Assembly (NCBI GenBank): GCA_000163555.2
Contig: ADAC02000001.1
Span: forward strand, 1,116,001 to 1,180,000
Length of the DNA stretch: 64,000 nt
Direction: 5' to 3'
Source: an alpha proteobacterium HIMB114
GTDB lineage: Bacteria > Pseudomonadota > Alphaproteobacteria > Pelagibacterales > Pelagibacteraceae
Positions 46,586-47,661 of this stretch are shown one piece after another; position 1 is the stretch's first letter; every line of letters starts with the position of its first letter. A program made the position numbers and the translations under genes. The notes beneath the pieces were generated by a model. It was not told the origin of the DNA. It worked only from the letters and a program-made list of their open reading frames with translations, and did no database searches.

Positions 46586-46611
46586 AAATTTTTTAAAAAT
46601 TTTTAAAAATT
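46586..46611. other. Phased A-tracts (likely curved DNA)
   Basis: Three AnTn tracts follow each other at 46586-46594, 46595-46604 and 46605-46611, with TpA steps 10 bases apart. Tracts in phase with the helical turn bend DNA. They lie about 20-45 bases upstream of the -35 box of the lysine-rich peptide gene, where curvature or an UP element would raise transcription. The remaining spacer back to 46517 is nearly pure A/T and holds no gene. Confidence 0.5.
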
Positions 46612-46629
46612 ATAAACATTTGACTTTAA

Positions 46630-46658
46630 TTGCGAATTAGTTTTTAAATTAACATAAT
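46630..46658 (+). promoter_or_regulatory. Promoter of the lysine-rich peptide gene
   Basis: TTGCGA (46630-46635, 4 of 6) and CATAAT (46653-46658, 5 of 6) are 17 bases apart. Transcription would begin near 46665, which is the first base of a perfect hairpin, leaving a leader of about 50 bases. The phased A-tracts lie just upstream. Confidence 0.5.
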
Positions 46659-46663
46659 AACGA

Positions 46664-46685
46664 ATCACATATTAAATTATGTGAT
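46664..46685 (+). promoter_or_regulatory. Hairpin at the 5' end of the lysine-rich peptide message
   Basis: ATCACATA (46664-46671) and TATGTGAT (46678-46685) are perfect 8-base complements around a TTAAAT loop. It coincides with the predicted transcription start, so the message would carry a stem at its extreme 5' end. Such 5' stems commonly protect messages from decay. A dyad binding site for a regulator is the alternative. Confidence 0.55.
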
Positions 46686-46713
46686 GCTCCAAACTTTAAA
46701 GGGAGGAACGGAG

Positions 46714-46830
46714 ATGGCTAAAAGAAGAAAAAAAGCTAAAAAGGCTACTAAGAAAAAAGCCAAAAAAGCTAAAAAAGCTAAAAAGAAAACTAAAAAGAAA
46801 AAAGCTACTAAAAGAAGAAAGAAAAGATAG
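46714..46830 (+). CDS. Lysine-rich 38-residue basic peptide, H1-like
   Basis: A 38-residue protein of 22 lysines, 5 arginines, 7 alanines, 3 threonines and the initial methionine, with no acidic residue. It starts MAKRRKKAKKATKKKAKK, continues with repeated KKA units and ends KRRKKR. It resembles the tails of histone H1-like bacterial proteins, so binding to DNA or RNA is likely, but there is no domain to prove it. The ribosome-binding region AAAGGGAGGAACGGAG directly before the ATG is the strongest in the window. It has its own promoter, 5' hairpin and terminator, so it is a single-gene unit. It is probably highly expressed. Too short for ordinary gene calling. Confidence 0.8.
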   Translation: MAKRRKKAKKATKKKAKKAKKAKKKTKKKKATKRRKKR

Positions 46831-46857
46831 TTTTTTACTTTTAAGTAATCTTTTTAT

Positions 46858-46895
46858 AAAAAAACGCTCTTCTCATTCGGAAGGGCGTTTTTTTT
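46858..46895. terminator. Bidirectional intrinsic terminator
   Basis: AAAACGCTCTTC (46861-46872) pairs with GAAGGGCGTTTT (46880-46891) around a 7-base loop, with one G-T pair. T8 follows on the plus strand (46888-46895) and A7 precedes it, giving a U run on the minus strand as well. It ends both the lysine-rich peptide gene and the convergent carD, whose stop codon lies at its edge. Confidence 0.9.
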
Positions 46896-47661
46896 ATGCA
46901 GGTGTATTAGAAGTTTCCTCTACTTTTTTACCAAGAGCTTTGTTAAGTCTTGCTTTACCTTCTTCTTCAGAAATTTTTAGCACAATAGATACTTCACCAA
47001 GCAATCTATCATAAGCTTTTTCAAACAATTGACGTTCACTGTAAGACTGGTCAACTGGCATGTCAGTATTCTTATTTAAATCTCTTACTACTTCAGCAAT
47101 TTGATAGATGTCACCTGAATTAATTTTTTGCTCATATTCTGCTGCTCGTCTACTCCACATTGTCCTTTTAATTTTTGCTTTACCTTTCAAAATTGAAAGA
47201 GCTTTATTTATCTGGTTTAAACTAGATAGGGGCCTTAGATGCTGCTGTTGATTAGTTGGAATCGTAAGATTTAATTTATCTTTTGTGATTTCAATTTTAT
47301 AAACGCTGGCTTCGATACCTGCTATTGTAAGTTTGTCTACAGATATAATTTGACCAATTCCGTGCTTTGGGTAAATCACATAATCTTTAACTTTATATGT
47401 CCTTTTTTCAGTTTCTTGTTTTTTTATTTTTTTTATTTCTATAATTTCATTTTGTTGAGAAGATTTAAATTGAGTATTCTGAATAGGTGTCTTTTCAACA
47501 ACTTTTTTACTTAAATCTTTTTTAGGTATTTTAGGTTGTTTCGTCTTAGCTGTTTTTTTTAAGGCTCTTTTTACAACTTTTTTACTAGTTTTTTTTACTA
47601 CTTTTTTTGTAACTTTTTTCTTAACAACTTTTTTTGATTTTGTTTTCGTCTTTTTTGGCAT
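46894..47661 (-). CDS. CarD-family regulator with a lysine-rich N-terminal tail
   Basis: Transcription regulator that binds RNA polymerase and stabilises open promoter complexes, as known for CarD/CdnL proteins. Residues 1-60 are a low-complexity tail made mainly of K, V, T and A. A short linker follows, and the CarD/TRCF-interaction domain begins near residue 90 (KVKDYVIYPKHGIGQI) with the helical DNA-binding part containing MWSRRAAEYEQKINSGD and YDRLLGEVSIV. Most alphaproteobacterial CarD proteins are about 165-200 residues; this one has 255 because of the tail. It is next to fdxA, as in other alphaproteobacteria, and faces the lysine-rich peptide gene across a shared terminator. Confidence 0.92.
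   Translation of the reverse strand: MPKKTKTKSKKVVKKKVTKKVVKKTSKKVVKRALKKTAKTKQPKIPKKDLSKKVVEKTPIQNTQFKSSQQNEIIEIKKIKKQETEKRTYKVKDYVIYPKHGIGQIISVDKLTIAGIEASVYKIEITKDKLNLTIPTNQQQHLRPLSSLNQINKALSILKGKAKIKRTMWSRRAAEYEQKINSGDIYQIAEVVRDLNKNTDMPVDQSYSERQLFEKAYDRLLGEVSIVLKISEEEGKARLNKALGKKVEETSNTPA

Follow-up and report, generated by a model that had tools for sequence, protein, structure and literature searches.

A conserved gene for a very small lysine-rich peptide beside carD in the Pelagibacterales, with its own leader hairpin and a possible role as a nucleoid polycation

A 38-codon open reading frame in the alphaproteobacterium HIMB114 is a genuine protein-coding gene, under purifying selection for its lysine, arginine and alanine composition, and orthologues lie beside carD in two families of the Pelagibacterales (SAR11). 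As far as sequence comparison can tell, its product would be a very short, disordered polycation with a charge-based affinity for nucleic acid, most likely the chromosome; we give this reading, a protamine-sized nucleoid peptide resembling the tail of histone H1, a probability of about 0.5. All coordinates below refer to the window, by which we mean the whole stretch of DNA analysed (64,000 nucleotides; positions 1,116,001 to 1,180,000 of contig ADAC02000001.1). The host genome measures 1.24 Mb and is assembled as a single contig; the peptide gene is preceded on the same strand by an AMP-binding (acyl-CoA ligase-like) gene and followed by a convergent carD. The features of the locus are as follows.

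46620..46625, + strand: -35 element TTGACT (TTGACA in most relatives); TTGAC is invariant in 66/66 loci
46643..46648, + strand: TTTAAA, a probable weak -10 element, placed by the conserved spacing (17 bp after the -35 element)
46661..46685, + strand: 5'-leader hairpin opening with CGAATC(A), stem 46664-46671/46678-46685; CGAATC is present in 66/66 loci
46699..46706, + strand: Shine-Dalgarno sequence AAGGGAGG, -11.3 kcal/mol against the anti-Shine-Dalgarno; GRGAG is conserved
46714..46830, + strand: gene for the 38-residue peptide MAKRRKKAKKATKKKAKKAKKAKKKTKKKKATKRRKKR, with an orthologous open frame, synonymous excess and A-run avoidance
46858..46895, either strand: bidirectional intrinsic terminator with a 16-bp stem, common to the peptide gene and the convergent carD
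46894..47661, - strand: carD (CarD_TRCF_RID and CarD_C domains; Pfam PF02559, PF21095)

A recount of the translation (K22 R5 A7 T3 M1) agrees with the first-pass annotation of this DNA, which had described 38 residues, 27 of them basic and none acidic. A DNA search of 40 relatives recovered the region in 7/7 genus mates and, with carD as anchor, the same ORF was found in 17 Pelagibacteraceae genomes and three genomes of the sister family, as well as in 46/46 named Pelagibacterales loci with sufficient flank (48 retrieved). Our ortholog set comprises 66 loci from the two families, 65 of them distinct across promoter, leader and ORF start, some entries possibly being one genome reached via two routes. 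At all 66 an ATG preceded by a Shine-Dalgarno sequence opens a K/R-rich frame whose length differences are in-frame only, and no frameshift interrupts it at the 65 distinct loci. With the caution that the sequences are related, so that significance is somewhat overstated while the direction is clear, codon differences across 13 disjoint close pairs divide into 21 synonymous and 14 nonsynonymous, where a synonymous share of 0.19-0.26 would be expected (p 9e-8 to 2e-5), and runs of nine or more A in the peptide genes number 2 against 65 expected from synonymous-codon shuffling. The predominance of synonymous change that the first-pass annotation had proposed looking for is therefore present, and 8 of the 14 nonsynonymous changes are K/R exchanges. 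Other genes of the window show no A-run avoidance (23 runs of nine or more, 26.6 expected). Alanine and threonine codons of the peptide genes in the genus are almost all NNT (GCT 0.90, ACT 1.00), a bias that is less extreme in ribosomal-protein genes (0.46 and 0.43, respectively). Over 46714-46827 and its orthologues, proline codons, like those for alanine and threonine, are also mostly NNT.

The conserved frame, the synonymous excess, the K/R-conservative changes and the avoided A-runs are the reasons why we regard the ORF as coding. One could argue instead that what has been conserved is a small RNA or a leader with a regulatory role and that the ORF is incidental, given that conservation of the leader DNA is highest at the hairpin and CGAATC, but a frame open in 66/66 loci, together with the substitution pattern and a codon choice that avoids A-runs, makes this highly improbable.

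The gene is close to universal in the order. Of the 154 Pelagibacterales genomes with a completeness of at least 90%, 130 contain a composite pattern (-35 element, CGAATCA and GRGAG), one copy each, while the reversed pattern used as a control gives two occurrences in total across the same genomes. A profile search rescued seven of the 24 pattern-negative genomes, including both single-contig ones, which raises the count to 137/154; in one pattern-negative genome (G221) the start of the ORF is truncated by a contig end. The remaining negatives are all draft assemblies, and assembly gaps are the likely cause of the absence, loss being conceivable. Outside the order the pattern has only three matches among 288 genomes of the class, unrelated-looking and apparently due to chance, and no peptide ORF lies beside carD in 28 alphaproteobacterial loci or in the further non-Pelagibacterales loci scanned. 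A K-rich frame at one locus outside the order (L034) was considered as a homologue and rejected, being carD's own tail. A class-wide search with the sister-family protein gave no match but, having been run without a positive control, is uninformative.

Length varies widely within the order. Across the 66 loci the peptide has 20-91 residues with a K/R fraction of 0.53-0.83; the N-terminal end (MAKRRKKAKK) is conserved, the C-terminal end is K/R-rich (KKAKKRRRR in most) and the middle is elastic. Members from the Pelagibacteraceae have a median of 25 aa, most having 20-30 residues and most no proline. Genus g12 has 50-58 residues with KPAA-type repeats, and the sister-family orthologue has 80-91, built of AAPKKK repeats of the H1-tail type (MEELKVIFAKARKKAKKKAAPKKK...), yet with the same -35 element, CGAATCA hairpin and carD neighbour as the Pelagibacteraceae gene. 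Proline repeats (KPAA or AAPKK) are thus found in the sister family and in genus g12 and are absent from the window's own peptide. Since charge is kept while length is not, we infer that charge matters rather than fold and that the product probably works as a polycation.

The regulatory DNA upstream is conserved as well. With the -35 element at 46620-46625 and a 17-bp spacer, transcription should start near 46655, a few bases before CGAATC, which would place the entire hairpin within the mRNA. The -10 sequence differs among relatives but stays A/T-rich, and CGAATC starts 37-41 bases past the first base of TTGAC (40 or 41 in 58/65; the value 37 occurs once, all others being 39-41). The promoter of the first-pass annotation, described there with 17-base spacing, was probably placed 10 bp off; the match it presumably had in mind, TTGCGA-17-CATAAT (46630-46658), is not conserved among loci and was rejected. 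Its phased upstream A-tracts did not hold up either: A/T tracts are present, but their centres lie an irregular 5-12.5 bp apart. As for CGAATC itself, methylation by CcrM at GANTC cannot alone be the cause, as GAATC is the only GANTC form kept; in the 66 loci it is always preceded by C and almost always followed by A. CcrM methylation may still be an added function of GAATC. GANTC is scarce across the whole window (121 sites against ~179 expected).

The perfect 8-bp hairpin previously noticed at the predicted transcript start was found again at 46664-46685 (ATCACATA/TATGTGAT). A helix of 6-10 bp is present in 53 of 54 distinct leaders, with a mean z of -3.0 relative to shuffles preserving CGAATCA, and is individually supported at p<=0.05 in 34/54. 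The 3' arm tracks the 5' arm by G-U wobbles (GATTTG, GGTTCG), and A-T/T-A stem exchanges separate clades (CACATA/TATGTG vs CACTTA/TAAGTG); given these wobbles and paired exchanges, the hairpin suits a function as RNA better than one as a DNA operator. The ompA and papA leaders are 5' stabilisers of their mRNAs, according to studies cited in a review (PMC3997798), and by analogy a hairpin placed this close to the transcript's start may stabilise this mRNA. The 12 CGAATCA sites of the genome include no second promoter-plus-hairpin, on which ground a genome-wide CGAATCA regulon was rejected, and a known RNA family was likewise discarded for the leader, Rfam giving only a tRNA and the SRP RNA in the window. 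In the window's genus the predicted fold also allows CTCC just past the hairpin to pair with GGAG of the Shine-Dalgarno region (46687-46713), and the sister family has CCC/GGG at this position; translational control by such pairing is possible.

The Shine-Dalgarno sequence had been called the strongest in the window, and it is the best of 61 starts, the next, among 60 long ORFs, reaching -7.9 kcal/mol; only the best ribosomal-protein start (-11.5 kcal/mol) exceeds it. The strong bidirectional terminator of the first-pass annotation is equally real, with hairpin energies of -18.5 kcal/mol on the + strand and -13.7 on the - strand; it was seen by folding, while a simple terminator scan did not list it, and in the relatives examined by eye a comparable hairpin with a T-tail lies 3' of the ORF. 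Shine-Dalgarno strength, the conserved -35 element and the terminator together point, if only indirectly, to high expression.

The link with carD also deserves attention. Synteny with carD had been suggested as a check, and in both families carD does lie next to the peptide gene in convergent orientation; the sister family has a different gene on the upstream side, while carD keeps its place. By eye, the upstream neighbour at three sister-family loci (L113, L124 and L128) resembles a CsaA/tRNA-binding domain and not an acyl-CoA ligase. CarD carries a lysine-rich N-terminal tail, here of ~84 residues (47410-47661, - strand) and in the sister family made of KKKVAKKKVAKKK repeats, and such an extension is encoded at 64/65 Pelagibacterales loci as opposed to 7/58 other alphaproteobacterial ones, so that both convergent neighbours bear polycations. 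By analogy with CrsL, a 5.7-kDa disordered CarD partner (PMC12709188), the peptide might be a small disordered accessory of CarD and RNA polymerase that works with CarD in transcription, and an adjacency kept in both families while the other neighbour changes would fit. On the other hand, the two genes are convergent with separate promoters, CrsL is another kind of sequence with a conserved hydrophobic stretch, and the peptide and the CarD tail are both positive, which makes direct binding to the tail unlikely; we consider a CarD accessory improbable. The common terminator alone could account for the lasting adjacency.

Taken together, the AAPKKK protein of the sister family, the CarD tail and the persistent carD adjacency favour the coating of the nucleoid, or of nucleic acid in general. 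The first-pass annotation had inferred a histone H1-like nucleoid or RNA-binding peptide: the H1-like part is supported by the sister-family AAPKKK and genus g12 KPAA repeats, and either DNA or RNA could be the target. Counting against the nucleoid reading is that three HU/IHF-family genes in the genome already supply nucleoid proteins. Conserved ends and a length of 20-30 residues could equally fit a lineage-specific ribosomal peptide lodged in rRNA, like eL41, bS22 and mS38, with the 5' hairpin as its autogenous control site. In favour of such a role are the lack of acidic residues, the short median length seen in the Pelagibacteraceae, a Shine-Dalgarno sequence on a par with those of ribosomal proteins and a single, near-universal copy, and the eL41 site is reported vacant in bacteria except for bS22 (PMC7005279). 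However, a fixed rRNA pocket would poorly accommodate orthologues of 50-91 aa with AAPKKK or KPAA repeats, the leader hairpin lacks a second genomic copy, and neither phmmer nor profile searches matched eL41 or any PDB chain (a single weak match, E 0.52), although an eL41 control query recovers its own family; as short basic sequences offer little statistical power, this missing match is weak evidence. We hold a ribosomal role to be rather unlikely, though it is the chief alternative. A polyphosphate-granule tether was also considered and is disfavoured, as a search of the genome for PPK1 found none. The genome encodes two further K-rich proteins, namely one of 341 residues with a K-rich N-terminal ~100 (L190; G000:C1:949000-950900, -) and one of 161 with a K-rich N-terminus followed by a hydrophobic stretch (L191; G000:C1:265400-267000, +).

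If the preferred reading of a nucleic-acid-coating polycation is right, a sigma-70 promoter would yield an mRNA of ~240 nt with the hairpin a few bases from its 5' end, where it might guard the transcript against 5'-end-dependent decay or act as a site of control. Translation from a Shine-Dalgarno sequence of ribosomal-protein grade would give a high yield of peptide, which would neutralise and compact DNA (perhaps RNA), possibly in cooperation with its lysine-tailed neighbour CarD.

Databases and literature offered little guidance. Members of both length classes lack a Pfam match, those tried against NCBIfam and PHROGs gave none there either, and no paper on such a SAR11 peptide was found; in a survey of SAR11 intergenic RNAs (PMC2704228), the main text does not mention carD and Table 1 contains no carD-flanked region. 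The peptide would have been overlooked because it falls below the length limits of gene finders and its tryptic fragments would be too short for detection, and its gene exemplifies a class that escapes both length cut-offs and tryptic proteomics. SAR11 genomes are streamlined, yet two families have kept this gene, complete with a promoter, a structured leader and a terminator of its own. It is a tentative proposition that some of the most abundant ocean bacteria harbour an overlooked, order-wide, protamine-sized nucleoid or ribosomal peptide with its own 5' RNA hairpin control. Were it to condense DNA, it would rank as a chromosomal polycation of very small size, with a bearing on genome packing in very small cells; were it ribosomal, it might occupy the site reported vacant in most bacteria.

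Bacterial H1-like polycations are already known, and what is apparently undescribed is a stand-alone, protamine-sized, order-wide form with a conserved RNA leader. Chlamydial Hc1 and Hc2 and Bordetella BpH1 are stand-alone H1-like proteins of about 100-200 aa; they share the stand-alone arrangement with the SAR11 peptide but are much longer and come from other lineages, and the SAR11 peptide has no Pfam match. The ribosomal peptides eL41 (eukaryotic form 25 aa, archaeal form 37 aa) and actinobacterial bS22 (33 aa), together with part of mitochondrial mS38, occupy one common small-subunit site (PMC7005279); at 20-40 residues they are similarly small and extremely basic, whereas the SAR11 peptide is elastic in length, of Lys/Ala-rich low complexity and without a sequence match to them. 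Actinobacterial CrsL is likewise a small protein linked to CarD, a link that in SAR11 consists of gene position only, but it is not a lysine-rich low-complexity chain. The C-terminal domains of AlgP and PhaF from Pseudomonas are comparable Lys/Ala(/Pro) low-complexity polycations with a variable number of repeats, and binding to DNA in vitro is documented for the KPAA peptides of AlgP (PMC9239181). While AlgP joins a helical N-terminal domain to a tail of ~195 aa, the SAR11 gene encodes a polycation throughout.
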